Below are positions 24,406 through 51,798 of a stretch of 64,000 nt of DNA, piece after piece (position 1 is the stretch's first letter; every line of letters begins with the position of its first letter). The translations under genes were made by a program, and so were the position numbers. The DNA comes from Pseudomarimonas salicorniae (GTDB lineage: Bacteria > Pseudomonadota > Gammaproteobacteria > Xanthomonadales > Xanthomonadaceae). Location: contig NZ_JALNMH010000002.1 in assembly GCF_023156535.1 (NCBI RefSeq), forward strand, positions 186,001-250,000, written 5' to 3'. Below the pieces are notes generated by a model. The model saw only the letters and a program-made list of their open reading frames with translations, had not been told where the DNA came from and searched no databases.

Positions 24406-26250
24406 TCAGTCGCAGGCGAAATCCTCGTCACCGACCGGCCGGCACTGCGGCGGAAAGCCCTGCTCGCGCCAGTACTGCAACAGCCCGTTCTCGGTGACAT
24501 GTCGCTTGAAGGCGTCGGAGCGGCGGTAGGGCGTATTGACCGGCATCCAGGCGGTCCAGTTGACGATGCGGTGACTATGGTCGCCGAGAGCCACCAGCAG
24601 CCCCTCGATCTGCTGGTTCTCGGTCCCCTGCGCCCGCACCAGGTTGCCTAGCCGGGCACGCAGCACACTGTGGTCTGCCTGCGGATCGCCCAGCGCGTCG
24701 TACAGCTCGTCGAAGGCGTGCCAGCCGCGCAGCCCCGACAGGCTGCTGCCGACCAGGTAGAACGCCTCCCTCATTCCCAGCGCGCGGAGGGTGAACAGTC
24801 CCGGGATATTCGGGCTCAAGGCGCCCACCGCCGCGGCGGCCAGCATTTCCTCGCGCGCCTGCTCGAGGTCGCCGAGAATCAGCCAAGCGCCGGCCAGATT
24901 GCCACGGCAGGGCGAATAAACCGGGTCAATCTCGCGGCAGCGCAGAAAATCCTCCAGCGCTTTCGCGACGTGGCCGGCGCGGAACAGCGCATAGCCGCGC
25001 CAGTTCACCAGGTCGACATTGTTCGGCTGCGCCGCTAGCGCACGGCTGTAGCCGTCCATGAGCTCGGCATAGCTGGCTCCGCTGCCGCGGACGCCGCTCG
25101 CCATATCGATATCATGGGACAGGCTGACTACGCCGAGGGCGAGGGGGTGCTCCGGCTCGAGCGCGAGCGCCTGCCTCGCCAGTTCACGCCCGAACGCCCG
25201 CGTGGCCGCCGAGGACTCGCGCAGGGACACGCCGTACTCCGGGGCGATCACGAACACCGCGCCGCGCATGGCGAGCGCATCGGTGAACTCCGGGTCGATG
25301 CGCACCGCCTGATCCAGCAGGTCCGCAACGTGGTTGAACTCCACCCGCGCGAAGTATCGCGTCCGCGCCTGCAGGTAGAGCGCATAGGCTTCGACGCTGT
25401 CGGTGGTCTTGGCCGCTGTGGCGGTCTCGCCGATCTGCGCGCCGAAGTTGGCATTGATCGCCGCCACAATTGCGCGGGCGATCTCGTCCTGGATCTCGAA
25501 CAGGTTTTCGGTGCTGAGCGTGCGGTCGAAGGTCTCCGACCACAGATGCGAATCGGCCTCGGCGTCGATCAGCTGCGCGGTGATGCGGATGCGCTCGCCC
25601 GCCTTGCGCACGCTGCCCTCCAGCACATGGCGTACCTTCAGGGTGCGCGCGATGTCGGGAATGCCGATTCCCTGCTGGGCGCGGAACTGGAAAGAGGACG
25701 TGCGCGAGGCCACGCTCAGACCCTTGGCCGACACCAGCACGTTGAGGATCTCCTCGCTGATGCCCTCGGCGAAATAGGCCTGGTCGCCCTCGGGCGACAG
25801 ATCGGCAAAGGGCAGCACGGCGATGGACGCCGCCGAGATCCCTGACGCAGGAGGCGCGTCAGCTTCGGTTGTACGGGTCCGCACGTCGGCGGAAGGCGCT
25901 GCCGGGCTACGCGTCCAGTCGATCAGCAGCAGGGTGATGGCCAGCAGCGCGATGGCAAGCGTTGCGATGTCCAGCTTGCGGGTGGTGGCGTGCCCCGCTG
26001 TGCGATCACCGCGCGGGATCTCGCTGTCGCGCTTCAGGCCCTCTGGCGTCAGCTCGTAGATCCAGCTGAACACCAATACCGGGATGAACCCCAACGCGAG
26101 ACCCACCACCAGCACCCGCAGCACCCAGTCCGGCGTGGCGAAGATCGGCAGCAGGGTCTCGGCGATCTGGATCAGCAGCCAGGCGGTGACGACGTAGAGA
26201 CCGGCGACGCGGATCACGTTGCGGCGACGAAGTTCGGCAAGAAAGCTCAC
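24406..26250 (-). CDS. P-K: TolB-N/FlgO-like TPR membrane protein (array member 11)
   Basis: 614 residues. The family head AELRRRNVIR is cytoplasmic. Helices lie at about 14-36, 42-64 and 94-111. A COG5616-type TolB-N/FlgO-like domain runs from about 141 (SIAVLPFADLS) through GISEEILN, SVASRTSSF, VLEGSVRKAGERIRITAQLI and HLWSETFDR. TPR-like helices fill about 270-560 and include LRCREIDPVYSPC, a cysteine pair also seen in P-J and P-F. It ends with YWREQGFPPQC and a second cysteine ten residues on. By the positive-inside rule the large part faces the periplasm. The start overlaps the D1 stop by four bases. It is the last P gene of the array; function unknown. Confidence 0.82.
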   Translation of the reverse strand: MSFLAELRRRNVIRVAGLYVVTAWLLIQIAETLLPIFATPDWVLRVLVVGLALGFIPVLVFSWIYELTPEGLKRDSEIPRGDRTAGHATTRKLDIATLAIALLAITLLLIDWTRSPAAPSADVRTRTTEADAPPASGISAASIAVLPFADLSPEGDQAYFAEGISEEILNVLVSAKGLSVASRTSSFQFRAQQGIGIPDIARTLKVRHVLEGSVRKAGERIRITAQLIDAEADSHLWSETFDRTLSTENLFEIQDEIARAIVAAINANFGAQIGETATAAKTTDSVEAYALYLQARTRYFARVEFNHVADLLDQAVRIDPEFTDALAMRGAVFVIAPEYGVSLRESSAATRAFGRELARQALALEPEHPLALGVVSLSHDIDMASGVRGSGASYAELMDGYSRALAAQPNNVDLVNWRGYALFRAGHVAKALEDFLRCREIDPVYSPCRGNLAGAWLILGDLEQAREEMLAAAAVGALSPNIPGLFTLRALGMREAFYLVGSSLSGLRGWHAFDELYDALGDPQADHSVLRARLGNLVRAQGTENQQIEGLLVALGDHSHRIVNWTAWMPVNTPYRRSDAFKRHVTENGLLQYWREQGFPPQCRPVGDEDFACD

Positions 26251-27032
26251 TGAGCACCCTCCTGCGCGAGCCTGCGAAGCCCATCAAGCGCGCCAAGATT
26301 GAACAGGGTCAGATCGCTGAGCCGGGTATCCATATCCGCGATCCGAAGGCGCAGCAGCGGCAGCAACGAGGGCTCGCTACGCAGCGCGGCCGCTGCGGAA
26401 GCGATCGACTCGATCGGCAAATCGACCTTGCAGGGGTAGTCGAGCGAATCCTTGACCCCTGCATAGTCACCCACCTCGATCAGGCGATCCCCGCAGTCTT
26501 TCGCCAGCTGGCGCTGTACCCGATAGGGCAGCAAGGTACGGAAGACGCCGCGATAGCGGGAGGCGACGCCTTCATCGCGCAGCGTGTCAAAGATGACGGC
26601 GGTGTAGGCGCCCGTCGCAGCTTCCCTCAGCTCAGGATCGCGAATCAGGGCGAAGGTGCCGGTCGAGATCAGCTCGTCATAGGTCGCACGCTGCGCCGGC
26701 ACGCCCAGGTACTGGGTGGCGCGATAGGCGCTGATGACCAGGTCTTCATCCGAGAGCAGGGCTGTACCGTCCAGCGCGTCGGCGGCGCGCTCGGCATGCG
26801 CCAGCACGTCGGTGTAGTACTCCAGCAGGTACTGATACTTCCACGCCTCGACCCGAAGGTCGGCCTTCAGTCTCGCAGTGAACTCGGTCGAGCGCTGGTC
26901 GTCCGCAAGGTCTTCATTCCAGTTGGCCACCTGGATACCGAGAAACACGCCGAGCACCAGCAGCACGAACTCCACCGACACCGAGGCCCAGTTCTGCTCG
27001 CGCAGCCCCTCCACGAACCGCCGCAGGATCAT
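26247..27032 (-). CDS. D1: DUF6090-like single-span membrane protein
   Basis: 261 residues. A basic amphipathic start (MILRRFVEGLREQNW) leads into one membrane helix (about 18-38, SVEFVLLVLGVFLGIQVANW) ending in NWNE, the hallmark of DUF6090-like proteins. The remainder is mostly helical and predicted periplasmic, with two cysteines (DCGDRL and YPCKVD). No enzyme motif is seen. It overlaps D2 upstream and P-K downstream by four bases each, so it is made together with them. Confidence 0.75.
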   Translation of the reverse strand: MILRRFVEGLREQNWASVSVEFVLLVLGVFLGIQVANWNEDLADDQRSTEFTARLKADLRVEAWKYQYLLEYYTDVLAHAERAADALDGTALLSDEDLVISAYRATQYLGVPAQRATYDELISTGTFALIRDPELREAATGAYTAVIFDTLRDEGVASRYRGVFRTLLPYRVQRQLAKDCGDRLIEVGDYAGVKDSLDYPCKVDLPIESIASAAAALRSEPSLLPLLRLRIADMDTRLSDLTLFNLGALDGLRRLAQEGAQ

Positions 27033-27772
27033 CGTGCGGTCTCCGCGTCGATCAGGTCGAGGATATCTTCGACCAGCGCCAGTTGCAGTTCGCGCTGACC
27101 CGAGGAGTTGATGGCGTAGCGCTGCAGCAGGTCGATCGCGACCGTGAAGTCGCGGTCTGCGCGCATGCCCTCGAGGTCATAGCCCAGCACTTCAATGCGG
27201 ATGGAGGAAAGCGCGGTCGGGTCGCGGACCGTGCGGCTGTTGAAGTAGCGACGGACCGTGGGGGACTGCTGGATCAGGTTGTCGGCGGTCACTCTGGACA
27301 CCTCCTGCAGGACGCCCAGCAGGCGGTCGTACTCGGCAAGGCTGTCGCGCAGCGCCGGGTTGGCGATGTAGCTGAGCTGCCCCTCCGAGCGCATTTCGAC
27401 ATAGGTCGCCGGCAGGGGCGGTGGGATCCTCAGCGAGGTCAGGGCATTGTAGGCGCGAGAAAGGCGTTCTTCGTCGACGGGTTGGTCTCGCGTGACATCG
27501 CTATCGGCGTCCGCCAGCTCAAGCAGGTAGTCCCCACCGTCCTCGGCATCGCGGTAGATCGCGAAGTGCTCGCGGATGCGGTCGCGGATGCCCTCGAAGT
27601 CGACGCGCAGGCGTTCCATGTACTGCGCCTGGCGAGCCACCTGCTGCCGATCCTCGTTCCAGTTGGCCACCTGGATGCCGAGGAACACGCCGACGATCAG
27701 CAGCACGAACTCGATCGCGATCGCGGCCCAGTTCTGTTCTCGGAGCTGTTGGGCAATGCGGCGAAGGATCAT
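27029..27772 (-). CDS. D2: DUF6090-like single-span membrane protein
   Basis: 247 residues from ATG 27772, one base after the P-J stop; a longer frame upstream is only the shadow of P-J. MILRRIAQQLREQNW, helix about 18-38 (FVLLIVGVFLGIQVANWNED), then a helical periplasmic domain with a YVEMRSEGQLSYIANPALRD segment. That segment corresponds to YDELISTGTFALIRDPELRE in D1 and YQELVSAGEIGLF in D3: a conserved Y-x-E-[LM]-x-[ST]-x-G motif. D1 and D2 are adjacent paralogs with overlapping ends. Confidence 0.75.
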   Translation of the reverse strand: MILRRIAQQLREQNWAAIAIEFVLLIVGVFLGIQVANWNEDRQQVARQAQYMERLRVDFEGIRDRIREHFAIYRDAEDGGDYLLELADADSDVTRDQPVDEERLSRAYNALTSLRIPPPLPATYVEMRSEGQLSYIANPALRDSLAEYDRLLGVLQEVSRVTADNLIQQSPTVRRYFNSRTVRDPTALSSIRIEVLGYDLEGMRADRDFTVAIDLLQRYAINSSGQRELQLALVEDILDLIDAETAR

Positions 27773-27773
27773 G

Positions 27774-29654
27774 TCAGGGCGCCTCCTCGCAGCTGAAGTC
27801 GTCCTCGCCCAGCGGACGGCACTGCGGCGGGAAACCGTGGGTGCGCCAGTAGTCCACAGCACCGAGGCGGCGCATCAAATGCTTGAAGGCCGGCGATCCA
27901 CGCAGCCCTTCGAGGCCCGGGTCCCAGTGTTCGATATCGGTGGAGGTCAGGCCATCTACTTCGCTGGCCAGGGCGTAGTCCCTGAGGATCAGTGCCCATT
28001 GGTAGCGGACACCGGGGTCCTGGCTCAGGCGTGTGACCAACTCACGCACGTTGTCCGGCGGCCGACCATCAAGCACTGTCGTCACGACGGCATGCTGGAT
28101 TTCCAGCGGCCAGCGCAGTTCGCGCATCAGCAGGCGCGCGGCGAAGGTGTTGCCCTGACGCAGCAGCGGTTCGACGAAGCCCTGGCCCTGGTTCGCATTA
28201 AAGCCCGCTGCGATGCCCTGCTCGTAGAGTTCGATCGCCGTCGGCGCGTCGCCGGAGAGCAGAAGGCCGACGGCCTTCCAGCGCAGGCAGTTCGCATAGG
28301 CCGGATCGATCGCCAGGCAGCGGTCGAAGTCGGCCAGCGCCCGGTCGAAGAAGCCAAGATCGATCCACAGGATGCCGCGCCAGAGGATCGCCGAGGCATT
28401 GCGCGGGTCGGCGGAGATGGCGAGATCGATCAGCCTGAGCGCCTCGGTCAGCTCAATCGGCAGCACGTTGGTCAGCAGAAGGGAGCGCGCCGCCCAGGGC
28501 ATGGACAGGCTGGGAGCGAGGGCCAGGGCGCGGGCGGCGGCCGCCTCGGATTTATCTGTCAGTGCCTGGTGATCAAGCCCGGGGTAGGTACTGCTCCAGT
28601 CGATGATGACTGCCGCCGAGGCGGCCAGCCCCTCCCAGGCGCGTGCAAACTCGGGATCCAGCTCCACCGAGCGCTCGAACAGCCGGATCGACTCGTCAAG
28701 CCGCTCTCGGGCCAGGAACAGCTCGCGTGCTTTCAGGTACGACTGGTAGGCGTCGAGGTTGTCGGTGTCGGCGCGCACCTGGACACGCTGTTCGCGTCCG
28801 CCCAGCGTGTCCCGCAGCGCGGTGACGATGGCATTGGCGATCTCATCCTGGATCGCGAAGATATCGTCGAGCTCGCGATCGAAGGTGTCCGACCACAGGT
28901 GCCGGTCGCTGCGGGTATCGATCAGCTGGGCGGTGATGCGTACGCGGTTACCCGCCTTGCGCACGCTGCCTTCCAGCACGTGGGCCACCTTCAGCTCCTC
29001 GCCGATTCTTGCCGCGCTCAACTCGCGGCCCTTGTAGGCGAAGGACGAGGTGCGCGAGGCCACGCTGAGGCCTTCGACCTTCACCAGCACATTGAGCAGT
29101 TCCTCCGAGATGCCGTCCGAGAAGTATTCGTTGTCGGCATCCGCGCTCATGTTGACGAAGGGCAGGACTGCGATCGAGCCGGACTCGATGCCATCGTCTG
29201 CCCCGGCATCCTGCTTCATTCCTGCGGCGCCCGCGGCGTCGGTCGCCGTCGGCGCTTCCGGAACTGTCTCGGCCTGGGGTTGCGCAGGGGCGACAAGGGC
29301 AGTCGTCTCCCTGGGCCAGTAGCGATCCGCCGCGATCACCACGAGCAGCACCACCACACCGACGAGGGTCAGCGTGTCCATCCGCTTGGCAGTCTGCGTG
29401 GCCACCGACCGGGTCGGGTCGACCTCGGCATCGCGCTTCAGGCCCTCGGGGGTCAGCTCGTAGACCCAGGCGAAGACCAGGGCCGGCAGGAAGCCCAGCG
29501 CCAGCAGGACCACCAGGGCCTGCAGCACCCAGTCCGGGGTGTGGAAGATCGGCAGCAGCGTTTCCGCGATCTGCACCACCAGCCAAGCGCCGACCAGGTA
29601 CAGGCCGGCCATGCGAATGACGTTGCGTCGGCGTAGCTCGGCGAGGAAGTTCAT
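27774..29654 (-). CDS. P-J: TolB-N/FlgO-like TPR membrane protein (array member 10)
   Basis: 626 residues. Head AELRRRNVIRMAG, helices about 14-36, 42-64 and 93-110, an Ala/Pro-rich linker, then the TolB-like domain from SIAVLPFVNMS (about 157) with GISEELLNVL, SVASRTSSFAYKG, VLEGSVRKAGNRVRITAQLI and FDRELDDIFAIQDEIA. TPR-like repeats include FDRCLAIDPAYANC. The C-terminus is YWRTHGFPPQC plus a second cysteine ten residues on. Of all members it looks closest to P-K and P-F. Its start overlaps the D3 stop by four bases. It is flanked by D genes on both sides, unlike the solid P block further upstream. Confidence 0.82.
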   Translation of the reverse strand: MNFLAELRRRNVIRMAGLYLVGAWLVVQIAETLLPIFHTPDWVLQALVVLLALGFLPALVFAWVYELTPEGLKRDAEVDPTRSVATQTAKRMDTLTLVGVVVLLVVIAADRYWPRETTALVAPAQPQAETVPEAPTATDAAGAAGMKQDAGADDGIESGSIAVLPFVNMSADADNEYFSDGISEELLNVLVKVEGLSVASRTSSFAYKGRELSAARIGEELKVAHVLEGSVRKAGNRVRITAQLIDTRSDRHLWSDTFDRELDDIFAIQDEIANAIVTALRDTLGGREQRVQVRADTDNLDAYQSYLKARELFLARERLDESIRLFERSVELDPEFARAWEGLAASAAVIIDWSSTYPGLDHQALTDKSEAAAARALALAPSLSMPWAARSLLLTNVLPIELTEALRLIDLAISADPRNASAILWRGILWIDLGFFDRALADFDRCLAIDPAYANCLRWKAVGLLLSGDAPTAIELYEQGIAAGFNANQGQGFVEPLLRQGNTFAARLLMRELRWPLEIQHAVVTTVLDGRPPDNVRELVTRLSQDPGVRYQWALILRDYALASEVDGLTSTDIEHWDPGLEGLRGSPAFKHLMRRLGAVDYWRTHGFPPQCRPLGEDDFSCEEAP

Positions 29655-30424
29655 GGGTTCAGCGCCTCGTTGATCTGCCCGGCAAGCCGCTCGGCAGAAC
29701 CCTGATGGTTGATGATCAGCCCCGTCATGACTTCAAGATTGGTGATCCAGAAGCGCAGTTCCCGCAGCATCTGCGGATCCTCGAGATAGACGTCGAGCAC
29801 GGCCTGCGCGTCCACCTCGGGGATGGGCGATTCGCACTCGAGCAGCTCCTGCTCATCGATCCCGGGCATGCGGTGGCAGGCACGCCAGACCCATGAGGCG
29901 GCCGGGGCCGGAGTCAGGCCGCGCACCAGGCGTCGATATTCGGGCTCGGTGCGGAAGAGGAAATTGGCCGCCGGTCCAGCGCCGCGAACGTAGTAGTCAG
30001 CCAGCGCCGTGCGCAGCTCGGCGCTGGAAAAAAGTCCGATCTCTCCGGCGCTGACCAGCTCCTGATAGGTGGTGTCCATCGGCACGTACGGAAACAGCTG
30101 GCTGGCCTGGTAGAAGGACAGCAGCGTCTTCCATGCCGAACCCTCACGCAGCTCGCCGGTTTCCGCGTAGCGGATCGCGGCGCGCCCGTGCTCGGCCACC
30201 TCACCCCAGAACACCACGCGGCGTTCCAGCGCCTCCCGGTCACTGCGCAGGTCGACGGCGATGCGTTCGAGGTTCTGTCGTGCCCGTTCGGCCTCATTGC
30301 GGGACTCATTCCAGTTCGCCACCTGGATGCCGAGGAATACGCCGGCGACCAGGAGCACGAACTCGATGCTGATCGCGGTCCAGTTCTGTTCGCGGAGATG
30401 CTGGGCAAGGCGCCTGAGGATCAC
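29651..30424 (-). CDS. D3: DUF6090-like single-span membrane protein
   Basis: 257 residues from a GTG at 30424 that overlaps the stop of the small fused ORF upstream. Helix about 18-38 (EFVLLVAGVFLGIQVANW) and NWNE motif as in the other D proteins; the conserved YQELVSAGEIG motif follows at mid-length. The first 130 bases of the gene are close to those of D5 at the nucleotide level, a sign of recent duplication. Cysteines occur in WRACHRM and LLECES. Role unknown; probably a periplasm-facing partner of P proteins. Confidence 0.75.
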   Translation of the reverse strand: MILRRLAQHLREQNWTAISIEFVLLVAGVFLGIQVANWNESRNEAERARQNLERIAVDLRSDREALERRVVFWGEVAEHGRAAIRYAETGELREGSAWKTLLSFYQASQLFPYVPMDTTYQELVSAGEIGLFSSAELRTALADYYVRGAGPAANFLFRTEPEYRRLVRGLTPAPAASWVWRACHRMPGIDEQELLECESPIPEVDAQAVLDVYLEDPQMLRELRFWITNLEVMTGLIINHQGSAERLAGQINEALNP

Positions 30425-30552: not shown

Positions 30553-30600
30553 GGGGTCGGCCTGCTTCCCGAGTAGATGACGGGGATCCGTACGGCGGCC

Positions 30601-31779
30601 TCAGCGCAGCTCACGTGGATCGTGACCGCTGGCCTCGATCTTCACCAACGCATCGCCCAGTCCGCTCAGGTAGATCGGCCCGCCCTCGCCGGTCAGTATG
30701 AGGCCGGTGATCAGGCCGGGCAGGGGTGACCACATGTCCGGTCCGAACAATTCCAGACGCGGCTCGCCGGCGTCGCCGCGCCGCTGCCATTCGGCAATGA
30801 CGTGATCGTGCTCGGGCGTTTGCGGACGGAAGGCGGTCGACCATTCGCCGGTCTCGGGATCGACCACGATCAGCGCGTTGTAGATGGGCGAGGCCACCCA
30901 GAGCCGGCCGGCGGCATCCAGCTCGATGTTGTCCGGCGTCGGCACGCCTTCGATGACCCGGCGGTCGGACAGCTCGCCGGTGGCCTGCGACAGCCGATAG
31001 CTGAGGATGCGATCGGCCATGGTCTCGGCCACGTAGATCCGTCCCCGGGCCTCGTCGATCGCGATGCCATTGGCGAAATCGAGTCCGGACAGCTTGCGCT
31101 GCGCTTCCGGGGCAGGCGCTCCGGAAGCAGAGGGCGCGATGCGGAACAGCGCGCCGTCGGCAGGCCGGGTATCGACCGCGGCGAACATGCGCTTCTCGGA
31201 ATCCGGCCCGCTGTTCTCGGTCGACTGGGTGAACCAGAGCGCACCACTGCGGTCTCGACGCGCCGAGTTGGCGCCGAAGGCGTGCTGGTGGACACGCTCG
31301 ACGCGCTCGTCCTGGCTGTTGACCCGGTAGATCGCCCCGGTCAGCACGTCCGCCACCAGCACGTGGATGCCATCGGGCTCGAGCGCCACGCCATTCGGGC
31401 CTGCGCTGCGCTCGGGAGGGGCGTGCACGTACCCGGCCGCGGCGAAGTTGCCGAAGGGACGCTTGCTGCCGTCCGCCGCCAGCGCCACCAGACCGTGGAC
31501 CTGATCGGCGATCAGCAGGGTGCCATCGCCCAGCATCACTCCGTCCTCGGGCCGCACCAGTGAGCGGTCGGCGGGAAACAGACCCACCTGCTGGTAGGCC
31601 GGGGCCGTGCCCGATGCACTCTGCGAGTCATCCGTAGCCGCTGCGCCCTGCCCCGCAGGCGAAGAGGGCTCCGGGCTTGCCTGGCTGGAAGTGTTGTCCT
31701 CGCCTGGAGCGCAGGCGCACAGGAAAACCAGAAGCCCTGCGTGCAGCGACGCGGTTCGTAGGTTGATGTGCACGGTCAT
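30601..31779 (-). CDS. SMP-30/gluconolactonase-like lipoprotein
   Basis: 392 residues. The start (LHAGLLVFLCACAPGED) looks like a lipoprotein signal with a cysteine near residue 24, followed by a disordered Ser/Ala/Gln linker to about residue 60. The remainder is a six-bladed propeller of the SMP-30/strictosidine-synthase type (RPEDGVMLGDGTLLIADQVH, GPNGVALEPDG, FANGIAIDEARGRIYVAET, PDNIELDAAGRLWVASP). Relatives hydrolyse lactones or esters using Ca2+. ATG 31779 is preceded by CAGGAG. It lies between the SDR gene and the second half of the array. Confidence 0.83.
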   Translation of the reverse strand: MTVHINLRTASLHAGLLVFLCACAPGEDNTSSQASPEPSSPAGQGAAATDDSQSASGTAPAYQQVGLFPADRSLVRPEDGVMLGDGTLLIADQVHGLVALAADGSKRPFGNFAAAGYVHAPPERSAGPNGVALEPDGIHVLVADVLTGAIYRVNSQDERVERVHQHAFGANSARRDRSGALWFTQSTENSGPDSEKRMFAAVDTRPADGALFRIAPSASGAPAPEAQRKLSGLDFANGIAIDEARGRIYVAETMADRILSYRLSQATGELSDRRVIEGVPTPDNIELDAAGRLWVASPIYNALIVVDPETGEWSTAFRPQTPEHDHVIAEWQRRGDAGEPRLELFGPDMWSPLPGLITGLILTGEGGPIYLSGLGDALVKIEASGHDPRELR

Positions 31780-31846: not shown

Positions 31847-32617
31847 TCAAACGGTCAGGGTCAGGCCACCGTCCGGCGTCAGGGTGGTGCCGGTGATATA
31901 GCTGGCAGCGTCCGAGCACAGGAAAACGATGGCCTGGGCGATCTCCTCGGGCCTGCCGGCGCGGCGCAGATGCACGCTGGGCAGGACGCCCTGGTCATAG
32001 ATCTCGTCACCCAGCAGGTTGCGAGCGCGGTGGTGCATCGGCGTGTCGACGATGCCCGGGCAGACCAGGTTGACGCGGATGCCTTGTACCGCCAGTTCCG
32101 CCGACACGCTGGTGGTCAGCCCGATCAAGCCGTGCTTCGAGGTGCAATAGGCCGAGCCGGTCGGAAAGCCGAGGAAGGAGTTCACCGAGCCGACATTCAC
32201 GATGGCGCCGCCCTGGCCAGCGGCCAGCATGGCCCGCGCCTGGTGCTTCATGCACAGGAACACGCCGCGCAGGTTGATCCCCAGCACGCGGTCCCATTCC
32301 TCGTCCGGCAGCTCGGTGATCGCCGAGAACACGCCCTCGATGCCGGCGTTGTTCACCGCGTAGTCGATCCGGCCAAAAGTGCCGACCGCGTGCTGGACCA
32401 TGGCCTGCACGTCTTCGCTCTTGGATACGTCGGTCTGGACTGCGCTGGCCTGGCCACCCGCCGCTTCGATCGCGGCGACCAGCGCGTCCAGTTCGTCCCC
32501 GCGCCGCGCTGCGACCACGACCTTGGCGCCGTTCGTGGCGAACAGTTCGGCGGTGGCGCGGCCGATGCCGCTGCTGGCGCCGGTGACCAGGGCAACCTTG
32601 TCTTGCATGTTCGACAT
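31847..32617 (-). CDS. Short-chain dehydrogenase/reductase (SDR)
   Basis: 256 residues from ATG 32617, which has GGAGA upstream. Classical SDR: cofactor loop TGASSGIG (12-19), NNAG near 89-92, Ser144 (NVGSVNSF), Tyr157 and Lys161 (YCTSK). Arg-rich residues after the second strand (AARRG) hint at NADP, though this is weak. It is cytoplasmic. It starts 106 bases after D4 and ends 67 bases before the lipoprotein gene; the two form a metabolic-looking insert in the membrane-protein array. Confidence 0.92.
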   Translation of the reverse strand: MSNMQDKVALVTGASSGIGRATAELFATNGAKVVVAARRGDELDALVAAIEAAGGQASAVQTDVSKSEDVQAMVQHAVGTFGRIDYAVNNAGIEGVFSAITELPDEEWDRVLGINLRGVFLCMKHQARAMLAAGQGGAIVNVGSVNSFLGFPTGSAYCTSKHGLIGLTTSVSAELAVQGIRVNLVCPGIVDTPMHHRARNLLGDEIYDQGVLPSVHLRRAGRPEEIAQAIVFLCSDAASYITGTTLTPDGGLTLTV

Positions 32618-34216: not shown

Positions 34217-34380
34217 GCGCGTTCTCCCTGCCGGTCATGGCTCATGGCGAAGCCGCCTTGACCGACGCCGAGACAACCTCGCTGACGAAGGCCTGCCAGC
34301 CCATCGTCGGGGTGAAGCGCGCCCAGCGCGACGTCCGCGCGGGACGTGGCGTCGTGATCTTTCGGGTAAACCTCACTCAT
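34213..34380 (-). CDS. Coupled micro-ORF between P-I and D5
   Basis: 55 codons from ATG 34380, which overlaps the P-I stop (ATGA); its own stop overlaps the D5 start (ATGA). Double coupling makes real translation likely. The product is soluble and acidic at first (MSEVYPKDHDATSRADVAL), then Gly/Leu-rich, ending GGFAMSHDRQGERA. No family is recognised. The ending recurs in the scar upstream of D3, so the micro-ORF was part of the duplicated unit. It could be a small partner protein or merely a coupling device. Confidence 0.5.
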   Translation of the reverse strand: MSEVYPKDHDATSRADVALGALHPDDGLAGLRQRGCLGVGQGGFAMSHDRQGERA

Positions 34381-44020: not shown

Positions 44021-45870
44021 ATGCCGCCGCCCTGCGCCGGGCAGGCGAATGGCACGCCCACGGCTGCGGGTCGCTGCACGCCTTCCCGCTCGAGCACGCG
44101 CATCAGTGAGGGGAACGGCGTCGGATCGAACTGGCGGTAGCTGAGGAAGCCGGACAGCGCCTGCACGTTGCCACTCTCCTCATAGGGCATCAGCAATTCG
44201 GTCGCCTCGCGGCTGCGCTGCAGCAGCATCAGCAGATGCCAGCGTTCGGAGATCTGCTTCGGCGAGAGCTCGCCCAGCAGCCGCTCGACCTCCTCGCAGC
44301 GGCCCTCGGCGCTGGCCTGCCGCGCGGGCGGGATGAGCGACCATTGCCCGCGCAGCGTGACCTGCTGCCAGCGTTCGAGAACCTTACGGGCGGCGTCGAT
44401 ACGTCCGTACCAAAGCAGTCCGCGATGCGCCTGGTAGAGGACAAACTCGTCATCCCGCCAGCGTTCGGCCAGCGGGAGCGCGCGCTCCGCCGCCAGTGCG
44501 ACGTCGGGGCCCCGGTGGCCGTAGTTCAGATACAGGTTGGCCCATTCGGCCCGCTCGCTGGCGCGCGCGTACACCTGATCCAGCGGCTCACGCATCGCGT
44601 CGACCTCGCTTGTGCGGGTCAGCATGTCGAGGATGACATTCAGCGAGATGCGGTCCGATGGGCGCGCGGCCAGCAACTCGCGGCGCAAGGCAATGACCTC
44701 GTTGAAGCGCTGCTCCGCCTGTGCCTTGAGCGAACGTGAAGTCAGCCGGTCAACGTCGCGGGAGGCGTGGCGAATCGCCAGATCGATGCGCTCCTGGAAT
44801 CGCGCCAGCATCTCGCTGCCAGACAGGTCACGCTGCGAGCTCGTCGTCAGGGTCGGATCCATCTCGTTCAGCCAATAGTCCGCGGCACGCGCATGCGCCG
44901 CGGCAAAGCCGAGATCAAGAGTCCGCGCGCTCTCGAAGTGCTCATAGGCCCGGCGGAAGTCTTCTTGCGTCGTAGGAAGGGATTCCGCCACGCCGCGCAG
45001 GTAGGCCTGGTAGGCCTCCACCGAATGGGTGCCCACTTCGGCCATGTCGGCCAGCGCTTTGGGATCCATGCTGGTCTGCATGGCCGTGGCGATCTGCCTT
45101 GCAAGGTCCTCCTGGATGCCGATCATGTCGGCCGCATCGCGGTCGTAGGTCTGTGACCACAGATGGAAGCCGTCGGCGGCGCGGATCAGCTGGGCGGTGA
45201 CGCGGATCCGGCCGGCGCCGCTGCGCACCGAGCCCTCGAGCACGTGGGCCACGCCCAGTTCCGCCGCGATCTGCGGGATCGCCAGGTCGCTGCCCTTGTA
45301 CTTGAACGAGGAAGTGCGCGCGCTGACCAGCAGGTCCGGCGTGCGCGCCAACGCGTTGAGGATCTCCTCGGTCAGACCGTCGGCGAACCAGCCCTGGTCG
45401 CCGCCCTGGCTGAAGTCGGCGAAGGGGAGCACGGCGATGCTCTTGTCAGTGATCTCGGCCCCTTCCCCGGGGGCATCCTGGGTGGCCGAATCCGCTGCCG
45501 GCGCCGGCGACCGGGCCACAAGGTCGGGCTCACCGCCCGGCCGCCAGAAAACCAGGCCGGCGACCAGCACAAGCAGCACGATCACTGCAACATCCAGTTT
45601 GCGCGCAGTCAGGTCGACCGTGCTTTCCGAGCGGTCGACGTCCCGCTCCCGCTTGATTCCCTCGGGCGTCAGCTCGAACGCCCAGCTGAATACCACCGCC
45701 GGTACGGAGCCGAGGGCGAGCAGCCCGACCAGCACCTTCATCACCCAACCCGGCGCCTCGAACACCGGCAGCATGGTGTCGGCCACCTGCACCACCAGCC
45801 ACGCCGCGACGACGTACAGGCCGGCGACCCGGATCACGTTGCGTCGGCTCAGCTCGGCGAAGAAGCTCAT
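44017..45870 (-). CDS. P-D: TolB-N/FlgO-like membrane protein with weak TPRs (array member 4)
   Basis: 617 residues from ATG 45870 (ATGA overlap with P-C). MSFFAELSRRNVIRVAG: one Arg of the family head is Ser. TolB-like domain: SIAVLPFADFSQGGDQGWFA, GLTEEILNALART, LVSARTSSFKYKG, VLEGSVRSGAGRIRVTAQLI, GFHLWSQTYDRDAADMIGIQ. The C-terminal part is helical with only faint TPR periodicity. The usual tail is absent, and the end is VGVPFACPAQGGGI with one cysteine. The most divergent of the subfamily I members with a normal N-terminus. Confidence 0.8.
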   Translation of the reverse strand: MSFFAELSRRNVIRVAGLYVVAAWLVVQVADTMLPVFEAPGWVMKVLVGLLALGSVPAVVFSWAFELTPEGIKRERDVDRSESTVDLTARKLDVAVIVLLVLVAGLVFWRPGGEPDLVARSPAPAADSATQDAPGEGAEITDKSIAVLPFADFSQGGDQGWFADGLTEEILNALARTPDLLVSARTSSFKYKGSDLAIPQIAAELGVAHVLEGSVRSGAGRIRVTAQLIRAADGFHLWSQTYDRDAADMIGIQEDLARQIATAMQTSMDPKALADMAEVGTHSVEAYQAYLRGVAESLPTTQEDFRRAYEHFESARTLDLGFAAAHARAADYWLNEMDPTLTTSSQRDLSGSEMLARFQERIDLAIRHASRDVDRLTSRSLKAQAEQRFNEVIALRRELLAARPSDRISLNVILDMLTRTSEVDAMREPLDQVYARASERAEWANLYLNYGHRGPDVALAAERALPLAERWRDDEFVLYQAHRGLLWYGRIDAARKVLERWQQVTLRGQWSLIPPARQASAEGRCEEVERLLGELSPKQISERWHLLMLLQRSREATELLMPYEESGNVQALSGFLSYRQFDPTPFPSLMRVLEREGVQRPAAVGVPFACPAQGGGI

Positions 45871-47756
45871 GCGCTCGCACCCTCCTTGGCTTGCAGATTC
45901 TGTCGGCGCATTTCGAACAGCCGTCGCAGCGATGGCCGGTCCAGCAGGCTGCGAAGACCGGCGTGCTCGGGCAGCCGTTCGGGCATGGGCAGGTACAGGG
46001 GATCCATCAGCAGCCGGTCCTTGCCGCTCAAGGCGCGCTCAAGCCAGACCGCTGCCTCGTCCAGTCGGCCAAGGCGCAGCAGGCCGTCGACCACGTAGTA
46101 GCCCAGCACCGACGGCGCATCCTCCTTGATCAGGGTGTCGAGGAGGGCGGAGGCCGCCTGCTGATCTCCCTGCCCGACCAGCAGGCGCGCCTGCATGAAG
46201 ATCGCCATGCCCTCACTGAGCCCGCCCGAACGCCGAGCGGAATCGATCAGGGCCTGCGCCTCATCGAAGCGACCGACCCCGATCAGGCCAGGCAGCACGG
46301 TGTCGGTCAGCAGCGCCGGCGAGCGCCGGTAGAAGCCCAGCGCCTGGGCTGTCTGCGCCGCGTCCAGTGCCTCCGCGTAGCGCTCCTCGAAGATCAGCAG
46401 CCGGGCCAGGTCATGGTGGTTGGCGGCCTGCAGTGGATCCAGTTCGACGGCCAGCCGCTCGGTAGCTTCGGAGCGTGGATCCAGCACCCAGAAAAAATAA
46501 TCACCGGCGAAGTTGACGATCTCGGGGTCGCGCGGACTCAGCGCCAAGGAGCGCGTGGTGGCCTCCTCGGCGAGGTCGAGGTCACCGGAATACAGCCAGG
46601 CGACGTAGCCCAGCACCGACCACGCTTCGGCGTTCTCGGGATCCAACTCCAGCGCGCGGCGCGCGGAGAGCCCGGCCACGCGCTGCACCTCCAGGTCGCT
46701 GGGGACGGCCTCCGTGGTCAGGTCCGTCGAGGCGTAGGTGGCGAGCAGGGTCAGGCTGCGCGCCAGGCCCGCATGCGCCGGGGCGTAGTCGGGGGCCAAC
46801 GCGACCACCTCGCCAAACAGCCGGCGCGACACCTGCAGCGCCTCCACCCCACGCAGGGCCATCTGCTGACGCGCCTTCAGGTAGCGCTCGTAGGCGGCGA
46901 GGTCGATACGCTCGGCGCGTGGGGCCACTTCGCCACCGAGTTTCACCTTCAGGGCGCCAACGATCGCGGCGGTGATCTCGTCCTGCAGGGCAAAGATGTC
47001 GCCGGCCTCGCGGTCGTAGGTTTCCGACCACAGGTGGAAGCCGTCCTCGGCGGTGACCAGCTGGGCGGTGATGCGAATCCGATCCCCCTGCTTGCGTACG
47101 CTGCCCTCGAGGATGTGGTTCACGTTGAGCGCGCGGCCGATCTCCCGCAGATCGCCAGTCTGGTCGCGAAAAGCGAACGAGGACGTGCGGCCGGCGACCT
47201 TCAGGTCAGGCAGTTTCACCAGCGCGTTGAGCAGTTCCTCGGCGATGCCGTCAGAGAAGTACACCTGCTCGGGATCCGAGGACATGTTGACGAAGGGGAG
47301 GACGGCGATCGAGGTGCTGGGCTCTCGCAGAGGGACAGGCACTTCCGGGCTCGGCAGCGGTTCGTCGGCAGCCGCGCCGGTCTCGGCCGTGGCGACCCCC
47401 TCGGGTGTCTCCGCGCGCTGCCCGGGCTTCCACAGCACCAGGGCCGCCACGCCGACCAGCAGCACGATCACCGCCACATCCAGCTTGCGCGCGGTGTGGT
47501 CGACGATGCTCTCGTCCCGACGGATGTCCCGCTCGCGCTTGATGCCCTCCGGGGTCAGCTCGAACACCCAACTGAAGATCAGCGCCGGGACGAAGCCGAT
47601 CGCCAGCATCACCACCAGCGTGCGCAGCACCCACTCCGGGGTGGCAAAGATGGGCAGCACGGTCTCGGCCACCTGCACCACCAGCCAGGCAGCCACCACG
47701 TACAGCCCGGCGACGCGTATGACATTGCGACGGCGGAGTTCGGCGAGGAAGCTCAT
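45867..47756 (-). CDS. P-C: TolB-N/FlgO-like TPR membrane protein (array member 3)
   Basis: 629 residues from ATG 47756 (ATGA overlap with P-B). Head MSFLAELRRRNVIRVAG and helices about 14-36, 42-64 and 93-110. TolB-like domain: SIAVLPFVNMSSDPEQVYFS, GIAEELLNAL, KVAGRTSSFAFRD, ILEGSVRKQGDRIRITAQLV, GFHLWSETYDREAGDIFALQ. TPRs include ARRALELDPENAEAWSVLG. The cysteine tail is missing; the protein ends LFEMRRQNLQAKEGASA. The linker GIKRERDIRRDES resembles that of P-D, suggesting a C/D duplication. Confidence 0.82.
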   Translation of the reverse strand: MSFLAELRRRNVIRVAGLYVVAAWLVVQVAETVLPIFATPEWVLRTLVVMLAIGFVPALIFSWVFELTPEGIKRERDIRRDESIVDHTARKLDVAVIVLLVGVAALVLWKPGQRAETPEGVATAETGAAADEPLPSPEVPVPLREPSTSIAVLPFVNMSSDPEQVYFSDGIAEELLNALVKLPDLKVAGRTSSFAFRDQTGDLREIGRALNVNHILEGSVRKQGDRIRITAQLVTAEDGFHLWSETYDREAGDIFALQDEITAAIVGALKVKLGGEVAPRAERIDLAAYERYLKARQQMALRGVEALQVSRRLFGEVVALAPDYAPAHAGLARSLTLLATYASTDLTTEAVPSDLEVQRVAGLSARRALELDPENAEAWSVLGYVAWLYSGDLDLAEEATTRSLALSPRDPEIVNFAGDYFFWVLDPRSEATERLAVELDPLQAANHHDLARLLIFEERYAEALDAAQTAQALGFYRRSPALLTDTVLPGLIGVGRFDEAQALIDSARRSGGLSEGMAIFMQARLLVGQGDQQAASALLDTLIKEDAPSVLGYYVVDGLLRLGRLDEAAVWLERALSGKDRLLMDPLYLPMPERLPEHAGLRSLLDRPSLRRLFEMRRQNLQAKEGASA

Positions 47757-49924
47757 TCGCGCCCTCCGTCATCAACCTGCCCATTGGCAAGCGCGCGGAT
47801 GGCTGGGTGTTCACGATGGCGACCTAGCTCGGGCAGCACCAGCAGGCCATCGAGGCTCCAGTAGTGCATCGGCAGGGCAAGGTAGGCGCGAAGCGCTTCG
47901 GCCAACTCTTCGCTGTCGACCACGGGCGCCAGGGCCAACGCGGCTTCGGCCATCACTTCCGAACGGATCAACGCGTCGCGTGCAAGCGTCGGATTCGCGA
48001 GAGCCCGATCGACCGCCGCGCGACTCGCCTCGAGCCTCCCGAGCAGCGCCTGCGCCCGGGCCATCTCGATCCACAGGCGGTAATCGTCCGGGTCGCCGGC
48101 AAGCAGACCCTCGACCTGCTTCCGCGCCGCCTCCGCCAGCTGTCGACTGCCGTCCCGGTCACCCTGGGCGTACAGCATCCTCGCCCTCCATGCGTTGGGC
48201 ATCAGCACCCGGAACTGGTTCTCCACCACCTCACCGGACTGCGAATCGAGGTAGCGCGACAGGCGCGTCCAGTCCCCTGCGCCGTAGGCGATGGCCAGAC
48301 TGATTTCCGGCAGCGCTCGCTCACTTTCGGGCAGGTCGAGTCCGCCGAGGCGATCCATCTCGGCGATTGCCCGCGCGTAGTTTCCGGTCCTGCGCGCCCT
48401 GGCCTGCTCGTAGTAGGCGCGCCGGAACACTTCGGGCACGTTGGGCAGGGTCCAGATGACCGAAGCCCAGTAGTTGGCTTCCTCCATCCTGCCGATCAGC
48501 AGATAGGTCTCGAACAGGGTCTGCGCGGGAGTCCACGAGCGCGGATCAAGCCGGGCCGCGCGCAGCAGGGCGGCGATCGCGGCCTGCGGCTTGCCCACTC
48601 GGCGCAGCACGTAGCCACGTATCGCGACCAGCTCGGCGCTACCGGGCAGTCCCTCCTCGGCACGGCCCAGCTCGGCCAGCGCAGCCTCCCAGTCCAGTTC
48701 GGCGCGGTAGTAGTGCTCGGCGAGCGCCAGGCGGACCACGGGATCGTCCGGGCGCAGCGCCAGGGCGCGGTCGATCCACTCCCGGCTGGTGCGGCGGTCC
48801 TCGTCGCGGCGCGTCTGGTACCAGAACCGGTTGGCATATTCGCGACCGAGCTCGGCCATGGCCACGGCGAAATCCGGATCAGCCTCCACCGCCTGCCGGT
48901 AGAGGGCGATGCGTGCATCAATGGCACCGCGGGCCCAGCTCTCGCGTCCCTGGCGGGCGCGCAGGTAAGCCTCATAGGCGACCGGACTGCGCGTCGGCGG
49001 ATCGACGCCGCCGGGCTCGGCGGCCACCCCCAACTTGCTGTTCAGTGCGCTGGCAATGGCCCGCGCGATCTCGCTCTGGATCTCGAACACGCTCTCCGGC
49101 TTCAGCTCGCGGTCGAAAGTCTCGGCCCAGAGGTGCGCATCGGTGCGCGCATCGATCAGCTGGGCGTTGATCCGCACGCGCTGCCCGGCGCGCTGTACGG
49201 CGCCCTCCATGACGTGGGCGACACCCAGCTCATCGCCGATCTGTCGCAGGTTCTTGGTGGTGTCGCGGTACTCCAGCACCGAGGTGCGCGAGATCACCGT
49301 CAGCGCCGGATTGCGCGCCAGCTCGGTGAGCAGGTCATCGTGCACGCCATCGACGAAGTAGGCGGTGTCGGGCTCGGCACTGCGGTTGGTGAACGGGAGC
49401 ACCGCGATCGAGCCGGACGGCGGCACCAGCTCATCGTCGAACGGGACCCGGCCGGGCGTATCGGCCTGCGCCGTGGGCGCAGGCGCAGCGTCGACGGCCG
49501 CTGCAGGTGCCTCGGCAGGTGAATCCGACTGGCTTCGGAATCCGGGCCCCAGATGCTGCCAGGCCATCAGCACGACGACGAAGAACACCGCGCCCAGCGT
49601 CAGCATGTCCAGCCGGCTGGCGTGCGTCGCGGGATCGGCGTGTTCAGTGGCGGGCGCCTCACCGTCATCGACGTGGATGCCGCGGCTGTCGACCTCGAAG
49701 ACCCAGGCCAGGCCCAGCGCCGGGACGAAGCCCAGCAGCAGCAGCGCGATCAGCGTCTTGCCGACCCACTCCGGTGCGCCGGTGAAGCCGAGCACCACGT
49801 CGGCCACCTGCAGGGTCAGCCAGCCCAGCACGATGTAGGCGGCAGCGACGCGGAACACGTTGCGCCGCTTGAGCTCGGCATAGAGACCGTCTGACTTCGT
49901 CCCGTCCGTGTTCGGCGCGCTCAT
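47753..49924 (-). CDS. P-B: longest TolB-N/FlgO-like TPR membrane protein, subfamily II (array member 2)
   Basis: 723 residues from ATG 49924, whose ATGA overlaps the P-A stop; a longer frame upstream is a P-A shadow. Head LYAELKRRNVFRVAAAYIVL. The loop after helix 2 reads FEVDSRGIHVDDGE instead of the usual ELTPEGLKRD. TolB-like domain of the P-E type: SIAVLPFTNRS, YFVDGVHDDLLTELA, VISRTSVLEYRDTTKNL, VMEGAVQRAGQRVRINAQLI, HLWAETFDRELKPESVFEI. Long TPR region. No cysteine tail (ends ANGQVDDGGRE). Confidence 0.82.
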   Translation of the reverse strand: MSAPNTDGTKSDGLYAELKRRNVFRVAAAYIVLGWLTLQVADVVLGFTGAPEWVGKTLIALLLLGFVPALGLAWVFEVDSRGIHVDDGEAPATEHADPATHASRLDMLTLGAVFFVVVLMAWQHLGPGFRSQSDSPAEAPAAAVDAAPAPTAQADTPGRVPFDDELVPPSGSIAVLPFTNRSAEPDTAYFVDGVHDDLLTELARNPALTVISRTSVLEYRDTTKNLRQIGDELGVAHVMEGAVQRAGQRVRINAQLIDARTDAHLWAETFDRELKPESVFEIQSEIARAIASALNSKLGVAAEPGGVDPPTRSPVAYEAYLRARQGRESWARGAIDARIALYRQAVEADPDFAVAMAELGREYANRFWYQTRRDEDRRTSREWIDRALALRPDDPVVRLALAEHYYRAELDWEAALAELGRAEEGLPGSAELVAIRGYVLRRVGKPQAAIAALLRAARLDPRSWTPAQTLFETYLLIGRMEEANYWASVIWTLPNVPEVFRRAYYEQARARRTGNYARAIAEMDRLGGLDLPESERALPEISLAIAYGAGDWTRLSRYLDSQSGEVVENQFRVLMPNAWRARMLYAQGDRDGSRQLAEAARKQVEGLLAGDPDDYRLWIEMARAQALLGRLEASRAAVDRALANPTLARDALIRSEVMAEAALALAPVVDSEELAEALRAYLALPMHYWSLDGLLVLPELGRHREHPAIRALANGQVDDGGRE

Positions 49925-51798
49925 TGGCCACACTCCAGCCTGGGGTCCGGCGACCCGTGCCACTGGCAGCCGTCGGGCGCGCCATGCTCGGCCCAGTAGG
50001 CAGGCAGGCCATGGCGCTGCGCGATCTCGGCAAAGCGCGGATGGGCGCGGAAGTCCGCATCGACCGGCGACCAGATCATCATCAGCAGGATCTGGCCCGA
50101 GGCGGGCTTGGGCCGTAGCGCTTCCTCGATCGCGGCATCGGTGAGCCCGGCGAACAGCATCAGGGTGGTCCAGTCGTAGCCGGGCTGCTGCTCCACGGCC
50201 TGCCGGAGCGTCGCGAGCGCGGCTGGCCGCTGGGCCGGGTCGGTGATGGCCGGTGCCACCGCGTGGTGCACGGCGCGCACCGCCTCCGGTATCCGGCCAT
50301 CATCACGCAGCCAGTCCTGGAAACGCCGCGCGGTCTCTTCGGCATCGCTGCCGTGCAGCGCCAGCTTGAGCAGCCAGGCGCTGGCGGGGCCGCGCCAGCC
50401 GAGCGCGTGGCCACGCTCGAGGTGCTCGCGGGCGCCGGCCAGCTCGCCGTGGATCAGCTCGGTCGCGCCCAGCCAGCCGACATGGATACCGCTGAGCGGA
50501 TCCAGGCGATGGCTCTCGGCGAAGGCCTCGGCGGCGGCATCGACGTGTCCGGCCTCGAGGTGGGTCAGCCCCAGCCACATGCGGCTGTTGGCGTTGTTGG
50601 GCTCCAGCGTCAGCGCGCGCTCCAGCAGCGCGCGTGCCTCGTCGCGGCGACCCGCGTCGGCGGCGATGCGCGAGCGAACGGCCAGGGCCTCGGCCAGGTC
50701 CGGCAGCAGGTCGAGGGCCCGCGCGGAGGCGTCGTCGGCCTGCTCGAAGGACGTTTGGGCAGCGTCCGGGTAGTAAGAGGGCATGACGTACAGCGTCGCG
50801 GCGAGGGCAGCCCAGGCCTCGGCGAACTGCGGATCGCGCTGGACGGACTGTTCCAGCAGGCTGCGCGCTGGCTCGAGGCTGGCCCCGCGCTGGGTGAACA
50901 GCTGGCGACCACGCAGGTACAGGCTGTAGGCCTCCAGGTCGTCGGTGGCGCGCCGCACGCGGACGGTCTGCACGCCGAGCGGCTCGGCCAGGGCATCGGC
51001 CACGGCCTGGGCGATCTCCTCCTGCAGGGCGAAGATGTCGGTGAGCTCGCGATCGAAGCTGTCGCTCCACAGCGGCTGGTCGGTGGCCGCGTCGATCAGC
51101 TGCACGCTGACCCGTACGCGATCGTCCTGGCGGCGCAGCGAGCCATCGAGCACGTGCGCCACGCCCAGCTGGCGGCCGATCTCCCGCGCGCTGTGCGACT
51201 GCGCGCGCAGGGCGAAGGACGAGGTGCGCGAAGCCACGCGCAGCCCGTCGATGCGTGCCAGCACGTTGAGGATCTCCTCGGCGATGCCCTCGGCGAGATA
51301 GGCATTCGACGGATCGGGACTGAGGTTGGCGAAGGCCAGCACCGCCAGCGAGCGCGGATCGGCGGGCACCGCCGGCGGGCGCTCGGAGTCCACGGCGGCC
51401 TCCCCGACGGGTAAGGCACGCCCGGTCGCGGCCTCGCCGCGCGGCTCGGCACGGTCGAGGACGAAGTGGCGCAGGCCGGACAGCGCCAGGGCCATCAGCA
51501 CCAAGGCTACGGTCAGCTGGTCGAGGCGCCGCGCGGTGCGCCGGCTTACCGGATTGGCAGCACCGGCGCCGGCATCGCGCCGTAGTCCCTGCGCGGTCAA
51601 TTCGTAGCGCCAGGACAGCCAGAGCACCAGCGGCCACAGCGCGAGCAGCGCCAGCGCGAGGTTGCGCACCGCACGTTCCGGCAGGCCGAGCAGGGGAAAC
51701 AGGAGATTGGCGACGATGATCAGCAGCCAGCCGAGCGCCAGCCACGCCAGCCCGGCGCGGAACACGTTGCGGCGACGAAGCTCCGCAAGCAGCCGCAC
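49921..51798 (-). CDS. P-A: TolB-N/FlgO-like TPR membrane protein, first of the array
   Basis: 625 residues from a GTG at 51798, with GGGGGGAGA about ten bases upstream. The head MRLLAELRRRNVFRAGLAWL is recognisable but the membrane region has diverged (WRYELTAQGLRRDAG instead of WVFELTPEGLKRD). TolB-like domain: SLAVLAFANLS, YLAEGIAEEILNVLA, RVASRTSSFALRA, VLDGSLRRQDDRVRVSVQLI, PLWSDSFDRELTDIFALQEE. TPRs include LLERALTLEPNNANSRMWLG. Tail YWAEHGAPDGC with a second cysteine twelve residues on. As the promoter-proximal gene it would set the rate for the coupled P genes behind it. Confidence 0.82.
   Translation of the reverse strand: MRLLAELRRRNVFRAGLAWLALGWLLIIVANLLFPLLGLPERAVRNLALALLALWPLVLWLSWRYELTAQGLRRDAGAGAANPVSRRTARRLDQLTVALVLMALALSGLRHFVLDRAEPRGEAATGRALPVGEAAVDSERPPAVPADPRSLAVLAFANLSPDPSNAYLAEGIAEEILNVLARIDGLRVASRTSSFALRAQSHSAREIGRQLGVAHVLDGSLRRQDDRVRVSVQLIDAATDQPLWSDSFDRELTDIFALQEEIAQAVADALAEPLGVQTVRVRRATDDLEAYSLYLRGRQLFTQRGASLEPARSLLEQSVQRDPQFAEAWAALAATLYVMPSYYPDAAQTSFEQADDASARALDLLPDLAEALAVRSRIAADAGRRDEARALLERALTLEPNNANSRMWLGLTHLEAGHVDAAAEAFAESHRLDPLSGIHVGWLGATELIHGELAGAREHLERGHALGWRGPASAWLLKLALHGSDAEETARRFQDWLRDDGRIPEAVRAVHHAVAPAITDPAQRPAALATLRQAVEQQPGYDWTTLMLFAGLTDAAIEEALRPKPASGQILLMMIWSPVDADFRAHPRFAEIAQRHGLPAYWAEHGAPDGCQWHGSPDPRLECGQ

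Follow-up and report, generated by a model that had tools for sequence, protein, structure and literature searches.

The window analysed here, a stretch of 64,000 nucleotides from Pseudomarimonas salicorniae (NZ_JALNMH010000002.1, positions 186,001 to 250,000; contig 12 of a 4.54 Mb genome, G000), carries at positions 24406-51798 an array of two families of predicted membrane proteins. Eleven genes (P1 to P11) encode proteins with a helical membrane head, a TolB-N-like domain and tetratricopeptide repeats (TPRs), and five genes (D1 to D5) encode smaller proteins related to DUF6090. All 16 are open without internal stops and lie on the minus strand, in agreement with a first-pass annotation that had listed 11 and five paralogs on one strand. 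From 5′ to 3′ the order is P11-P10-P9-P8-P7-P6-P5-P4-P3-D5-D4-SDR-SMP-30-like-D3-P2-D2-D1-P1. For P3, P5, P6, P10, D2 and D4, the start lies later than that of the longest open reading frame. The genes are as follows, with percentages giving the identity of orthologues in other genomes, including the same-genus genome G003.

49921..51798, minus strand: P11, 625 amino acids; first gene of the array; its head and that of P10 are the most divergent
47753..49924, minus strand: P10, 723 amino acids; ATGA overlap with P11
45867..47756, minus strand: P9, 629 amino acids; ATGA overlap
44017..45870, minus strand: P8, 617 amino acids; orthologue in G003 (70%)
41888..44020, minus strand: P7, 710 amino acids; orthologue in G003 (73%)
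40029..41891, minus strand: P6, 620 amino acids
38137..40032, minus strand: P5, 631 amino acids
36220..38133, minus strand: P4, 637 amino acids; orthologues in G003 (66%) and G044 (56%)
34377..36218, minus strand: P3, 613 amino acids
33452..34216, minus strand: D5, 254 amino acids; DUF6090-like, 16.9 bits, below the cut-off of 23.5
32724..33452, minus strand: D4, about 242 amino acids; ATG at 33452, 1-base overlap with D5
31847..32617, minus strand: SDR-family oxidoreductase, within the array
30601..31779, minus strand: SMP-30/gluconolactonase-like protein, within the array
29651..30424, minus strand: D3, 257 amino acids; DUF6090, 24.0 bits; structure modelled; ATGA overlap into P2
27774..29654, minus strand: P2, 626 amino acids; orthologue in G003 (62%)
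27029..27772, minus strand: D2, 247 amino acids; orthologue in G003 (70%)
26247..27032, minus strand: D1, 261 amino acids; DUF6090, 25.0 bits; GTGA overlap into P1
24406..26250, minus strand: P1, 614 amino acids; structure modelled

The near-continuous, tight junctions reported earlier were found at 13 of the 14 direct P/D junctions, with spacings from −4 to +3: neighbouring genes overlap as ATGA at eight of them, as GTGA at one and by a single base (TGATG) at another, and gaps of +1, +1 and +3 separate the rest. The remaining junction, between P3 and D5, is a gap of 160 bases. The first-pass annotation had missed the SDR and SMP-30-like genes, which interrupt the array between D4 and D3 and leave intergenic spacings of 106, 67 and 176 bases, and the three gaps above 100 bases (160, 106 and 176). 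No sigma-70-like promoters were found in 23500-52300, and terminator-like sites were not above those of shuffled sequences (1 vs. 5.4 and 4 vs. 4.1); both results are weak evidence in a GC-rich genome.

Identity of the P paralogs to P1 is 30-44%, and they share, as had been described, an AELRRRN-type head, an IAVLPF...EGSVR...DR-type domain and TPRs. Three stretches, corresponding to the three helices proposed for the head, passed the hydropathy limit in 10 of the 11 proteins; the third stretch of P4 fell short. Searching its own genome with a P profile returned the 11 P proteins and four weaker relatives elsewhere (260-362 bits), two of them with the same head (L157, L159) and two with a helix-turn-helix (HTH) domain, and matches to TPRs only stayed below 45 bits. 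TPR matches were present in all five P proteins scanned (of 11), and no output domain was found in these five or in the three D proteins scanned. Trans_reg_C, an HTH domain, had no match in the same five P proteins, and in each of the 11 no more than 23 residues lie ahead of the first hydrophobic window, which leaves too little room for such a domain. Because an HTH domain was lacking, P was not classed as a CadC-like regulator. The earlier label FlgO-like did not hold at the Pfam cut-off: FlgO (PF17680) gave 11.9-15.5 bits in four of the five P proteins scanned, against a cut-off of 22.6, and no match in the fifth, and the closest solved two-domain structure is the periplasmic domain of CadC. 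TolB (TIGR02800) remained far below its cut-off of 343.15 (16.3-21.3 bits in three of the five P proteins scanned), and P carries TPRs where TolB has a beta propeller. The NCBIfam CadC model matched P3 (E 1.2e-9, 37.5 bits, cut-off 400) and, more weakly, P2, P7 and P1. The head itself (about residues 1-96) had no Pfam or NCBIfam match in the five P proteins scanned, and against PADLOC an insignificant match in P2 was noted (CARF_TM, E 0.034). A search for a known structural relative of the head was likewise fruitless, the best match to a solved structure (E 0.86) being taken as chance.

In the structural model of P1 (mean predicted local distance difference test score, pLDDT, 87.3), helices at residues 12-37, 41-65 and 87-114 are followed by a TolB-N-like domain (142-269), by TPR-type helices spanning 286-597 and, at the end of the chain, by a hairpin. 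Among natural proteins, Foldseek ranked the periplasmic domain of CadC first (3ly8, E 3.1e-6, TM-score 0.62 on the target), and VIA-align superposed the model on 3ly9 with a Z-score of 15.0 over 296 residues (root-mean-square deviation 5.7, model residues 134-499). The likeness of P to CadC is based on this Foldseek rank, on the coverage of both domains and on the weak sequence match. As modelled, P1 has the alpha/beta plus TPR fold of a CadC-type sensor, with a predicted periplasmic placement. The three helices, together with four to five lysines or arginines within the first 16 residues in eight of the 11 P proteins, point to a periplasmic location of the C-terminal part; helix count and charge were used for this placement since cysteine pairs are too infrequent.

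The D paralogs are 28-32% identical to D1, and all five align with invariant residues, including the MILRR...NWNE motif. The D profile matched these five genes alone in their own genome. The proposed kinship to DUF6090 (PF19578, cut-off 23.5) could be retained for D1 and D3, which score 25.0 and 24.0 bits; D5 lies below the cut-off, and D2 and D4 had no match at E ≤ 0.001 in a genome search. Relatives of D5 that are 51-56% identical are found on alpha- and gammaproteobacterial-labelled contigs. In the model of D3 (mean pLDDT 95.3), the helix at residues 15-89 contains the membrane span and runs on into a helical domain, in which a short hairpin is bracketed by C183 and C197 and the long final helix ends at residue 255. 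Within 90 D proteins of subtypes d1, d2 and d3, one of these two cysteines is invariant and the other at least 90% conserved. Across full-length D proteins of all subtypes, 187 of 335 have exactly two cysteines past residue 45 and 87 have none. The subtypes are Louvain clusters, one of which, d0, is a large mixed group (165 of 351). Kinship of the D fold to receptor input domains (PilJ, NarQ, MCP2201, McpZ and Tar) was considered and is not claimed, the Z-scores of 7.6-8.2 being at chance level for helical bundles.

Both families combine constant and variable parts. Mean pairwise identity among the 11 P proteins is highest over residues 1-76, which hold the first two helices (62%), and in the TolB-N domain (52%); the third helix reaches 33%, the last 50 residues 26%, the TPR part 23% and the linker 18%. 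Among the five D proteins it is 66% over residues 1-45 and 22% over the remainder. Five orthologue pairs with G003, four of them P pairs, gave ratios of nonsynonymous to synonymous substitution rates (dN/dS) of 0.23-0.34, and the most conserved part of the four P pairs is the TolB-N domain (82-93% identical). The tested P and D proteins evolve faster than SufB, encoded next door, since SufB is 92% identical between the same two genomes. In a tree of 90 of 102 P proteins, those with 560 residues or more and no more than four X, the 11 P proteins of the window need 11 label changes, at least 10 of which are forced by starred branches. All five D proteins and eight of the 11 P proteins have a clearly closer relative in another genome than in their own array, with P1, P3 and P9 nearer to ties. 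As judged from these sequences, the 11 P proteins are 11 old lineages. A recent tandem duplication was rejected on account of the label changes in the P tree and of the closer outside relatives of all five D proteins.

To place the array among its relatives, genome contigs were scanned with the D profile, which gave 336 relatives, and the best 80 fell into 76 loci. By label, these belong to Lysobacterales, relatives of Hyphomonas and Parvularculaceae, Kangiella, Glaciecola/Paraglaciecola and one Rhodothermales bin. Two or more D genes are present in 58 of the 76, with up to 14 in one locus and other genes interspersed. L077 and L114 were left out of the locus counts that follow because they lie on the same contigs as L147 and L148. 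P genes (head plus TolB-N) occur in the flanks of 19 of the 74 D loci, a lower bound since many loci end at contig ends; they number 46, and all 46 are on the D strand. The 19 include three alphaproteobacterial-labelled loci (L102, L118 and L122), and at the other 55 loci no P gene was in view. P and D genes stand together in L069, from the isolate Arenimonas daejeonensis KACC 14631. An absence of P-D linkage elsewhere, which the first-pass annotation had named as grounds for refutation, was thus not observed. The linkage is facultative, though: P-only and D-only arrays occur too. P-only arrays comprise 10 genes in G041, where no D was found, and nine in G051, which has D elsewhere in the genome; both are from another family. 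Other compositions include nine P genes in G077, several of them orthologous to P genes of the window; eight P genes followed by three other genes and two D genes in G092; two P genes, a hydrolase gene and ten D genes in G068; and two P and nine D genes in G135. The array layout therefore recurs beyond its own genome. Of 249 genomes sampled evenly from the order, 50 had D and 78 the P head, and the head was found in 46 of the 50 genomes with D vs. 32 of the 199 without (Fisher p 2.5e-24, uncorrected for descent). Of 370 genomes sampled evenly from the class, six had D, that of the window among them, and the same-genus genomes G001 and G002 had no D at E ≤ 0.001. Among 40 D and 10 P rows picked by eye as possibly sharing contigs, at least nine pairs, from eight genomes, were co-directional and one lay on opposite strands.

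Overlaps of exactly four bases occur at 172 of 268 D-D, 24 of 58 P-P, nine of 16 D-P and none of 18 P-D junctions, counts that take in the window and loci L142-L159 and are not independent, some loci sharing one genome (L106, L108). Genes of the loci were predicted with a simple caller, which missed D4 in the window; the alignments hold 90 of 141 eligible rows (A5) and 38 of 46 (A6). The overlap at nine of the 16 D-to-P neighbours supports the co-translation proposed earlier. In all nine, the D gene is of subtype d1 or d3 (13 D genes tested from ten loci and the window; the p-value of 0.005 takes no account of relatedness).

The arrays also appear to turn over. Around the suf operon, where the array of the window is located, no P or D was found within 16-19 kb in three same-genus genomes, and the arrays of G003 sit on contigs other than that of its suf operon. 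Decayed P heads without a full frame adjoin D or P genes in L104:5338-6552 and L117:4788-8075 and are a sign of gene loss within arrays; in G028, a P stretch with two stops adjoins D. The possibility of a plasmid-borne array was rejected: D3 had no match in a plasmid collection, and the 572 records matched by P4 were all below 60% identity, none covering more than 80% of its length. The 15 listed matches start at residue 116 or later, so that they lack the head.

Comparison with described systems places the parts of the array more readily than the whole. CadC (3LY7/3LY8/3LY9) shares with P an alpha/beta domain followed by a TPR-like helical domain; it has an HTH domain and a single helix, whereas P has a three-helix head without HTH and is encoded in arrayed genes. 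According to an excerpt of PMC3096576, CadC is tuned by a periplasmic disulfide. In co-component systems such as VtrA/VtrC, two overlapping genes can make one outer sensor, and the VtrA domain has been argued to be structurally linked to CadC (both from an excerpt of PMC9214523). With VtrA/VtrC the array shares overlapping gene pairs of membrane-tethered proteins (D3-P2 and D1-P1, four bases each), with the outer placement predicted here. As far as the excerpt describes them, one chain of VtrA/VtrC and ToxR/ToxS carries an HTH output and the partner is lipocalin-like; the array, by contrast, comprises 16 genes, its scanned members lack an output domain and D forms a helical bundle.

The TolB-N plus TPR module of P, which we take to be of the COG5616 type, also occurs in proteins with cyclase, HTH or TIR domains, which have an output domain where P has its membrane head. 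Two proteins of its own genome carry the same module behind an HTH domain, and proteins on rhizobial plasmids that carry it are annotated as adenylate/guanylate cyclases. The literature searched, in which most subscription journals were outside coverage, held no description of such arrays by titles and abstracts and no paper naming DUF6090. The parts belong to known families or kinds of sensor, and the headed form without output and the mixed arrays appear undescribed.

With slightly less than even confidence, we interpret the array as an operon-like repertoire, subject to turnover, of inner-membrane sensors (P) and co-sensors (D) that share a membrane module. P would be a CadC-type sensor module on a conserved membrane head that replaces the cytoplasmic DNA-binding domain of CadC. 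D would consist of a single membrane helix that continues straight into a helical bundle, resembling the input domain of a receptor that lacks its output domain. Both chains would face the periplasm, and a D protein of subtype d1 or d3 would pair with the P protein translated directly after it, a pairing proposed because all nine 4-base D-P overlaps involve these subtypes. Through the variable TPR and bundle parts, the members may recognise distinct ligands or states of the envelope, and the constant heads may connect them to one common partner or gather them in mixed clusters. The signal would cross the membrane via helix contacts to an output encoded elsewhere. The sensor and co-sensor roles were chosen because the module is coupled to outputs in other proteins and because co-component systems and CadC provide precedents; the anatomy is considered receptor-like because a rather constant membrane part and a conserved middle domain are combined with outer parts that differ. 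A more specific version, which we regard as possible but doubtful, is a receptor repertoire in which co-translated CadC-type sensors without an output of their own evolve by birth and death and form mixed assemblies via the constant head, with D as exchangeable co-sensors.

Several observations weigh against the sensor interpretation. The D fold resembles only generic helical bundles and had no Foldseek match at E ≤ 0.001, and the P-free D loci indicate that D can do without a nearby P. In G129, D and P are on opposite strands, 187 bases apart, and headless TolB-N proteins lie on the opposite strand near D genes (one in L123 and five in L139); the one scanned in each of these loci is a TIR protein. 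Since TIR proteins share the TolB-N-TPR module, this module is not always a membrane sensor. In VIA-align, CadC ranked only 39th; many TPR proteins scored as high or higher (up to Z 16.8), and a few of these cover the TolB-N part as well. Topology is affected as well, given the poor conservation of the third P helix (33%) and its sub-threshold hydropathy in P4, and cysteine pairs near the C-terminus are present in just 36 of 91 P proteins. Finally, no output partner was found: among the two nearest genes on either side of D-bearing arrays, none is a constant neighbour.

The strongest rival is a periplasmic scaffolding or assembly role without signalling, in which the TPR part of P and the bundle of D would hold or deliver envelope proteins. 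Proteins are the usual ligands of TPR superhelices, the P proteins weakly match TPR-containing assembly proteins (PilW and, for P7, LapB, among others), and the membrane head comes without a recognised output domain. Yet the two-domain arrangement matches that of a known sensor and the module is joined to outputs elsewhere (HTH in its own genome, annotated cyclases on rhizobial plasmids), which makes this role rather unlikely in our estimation. The first-pass annotation had left open whether the array encodes interchangeable sensors or a hetero-oligomer. A fixed hetero-oligomeric envelope complex, with each P and D an obligate subunit and translation in stoichiometric order, would agree with the tight translational coupling and with old, distinct lineages that have orthologues in other genomes, the five tested being under purifying selection; the shared membrane parts could also pack together. 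We consider it unlikely, because number and content vary and some members decay: there are P-only arrays of 10 and nine genes, P-less loci with up to 14 D genes and other mixes, decayed P heads in L104 and L117, and no detectable D in G001 and G002. Variation in size, content and place, decay and the old lineages fit interchangeable sensors better, so that this half of the earlier proposal is preferred to the hetero-oligomer.

An array that confers immunity or defence against toxins or phages, with competition driving its diversity, would likewise consist of tandem, diversified paralogs, some of them decayed, at variable locations, and TIR proteins near some D arrays and a ParD-like gene in L079 and L122 could be read in this way. 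PADLOC gave no convincing match for the eight of 16 array proteins scanned, however (best E 0.0018, to the TPR region), and no toxin or secretion family was among the recurrent neighbours scanned, most neighbours being outside that scan; such a function is improbable. Least probable of all is that duplicated membrane genes accumulated neutrally and share no task. Gain, decay, relocation and the unrelated genes within arrays would be expected from such a process, but dN/dS values of 0.23-0.34 in five pairs, TolB-N domains 82-93% identical in four P pairs, strict strand agreement and coupling are not.

Two further genes flank the array in the window.

23702-24352: Dioxygenase_C protein gene, 53 bases after P1
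52039-54114, same strand as the array: PAS histidine kinase gene, ending 240 bases before P11

Relatives of the Dioxygenase_C protein stand beside P/D arrays in L117 (68% identical), L124 (63%) and G092 (L172; 73%), and this gene may travel with the arrays. The PAS kinase was rejected as a conserved partner, as no full-length relative occurs at the other collected arrays; its only relatives there are a partial match (38% over 232 residues) immediately behind the D genes in L070 and a weak match, on the other strand, in L069, both taken as general kinase likeness. The D4-SDR-SMP-30-like succession recurs in L090, where the last D gene of an array is followed after 46 bases by an SDR gene (73% identical to that of the window) and then by an SMP-30 protein (72%), which is fused to a SnoaL domain; the SDR and SMP-30 genes occupy L090:14503-16945. 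The SMP-30-like gene was considered as a frequent neighbour on account of a 12-locus cluster and discarded, because direct comparison left L090 alone; the cluster was probably chained via proteins with SnoaL-type domains.

Other genes were observed at the collected loci. A second single-helix family, with EVRQN or IRQN after the helix, is represented by 30 genes in 20 of 95 loci searched, all on the plus strand like the D arrays of their loci and mostly alphaproteobacterial-labelled (e.g., L086:10660-11772 and L093:15633-16268). TIR proteins with the TolB-N/TPR module are encoded near D arrays in L123:4433-6859, L129:14725-16758 and L139:1113-2810. An MmeI-like restriction-modification gene lies within the P array of G077 (L169:3606-7379), and the ParD-like antitoxin genes of D loci L079 and L122 were judged by eye.

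Headed TolB-N/TPR proteins and DUF6090 proteins, two families without an assigned function, thus form long co-directional arrays. Lysobacterales often have both together; in Hyphomonadaceae and Parvularculaceae, D mostly occurs without P and frequently beside a different membrane family. If the array members are sensors without an output of their own, this would point to a shared partner, and D3-P2 and D1-P1 would be a tractable case of variable outer domains that are read through a constant membrane part. Should the receptor-repertoire reading be true, sensing would be widened by a system that is neither one-, two- nor co-component.

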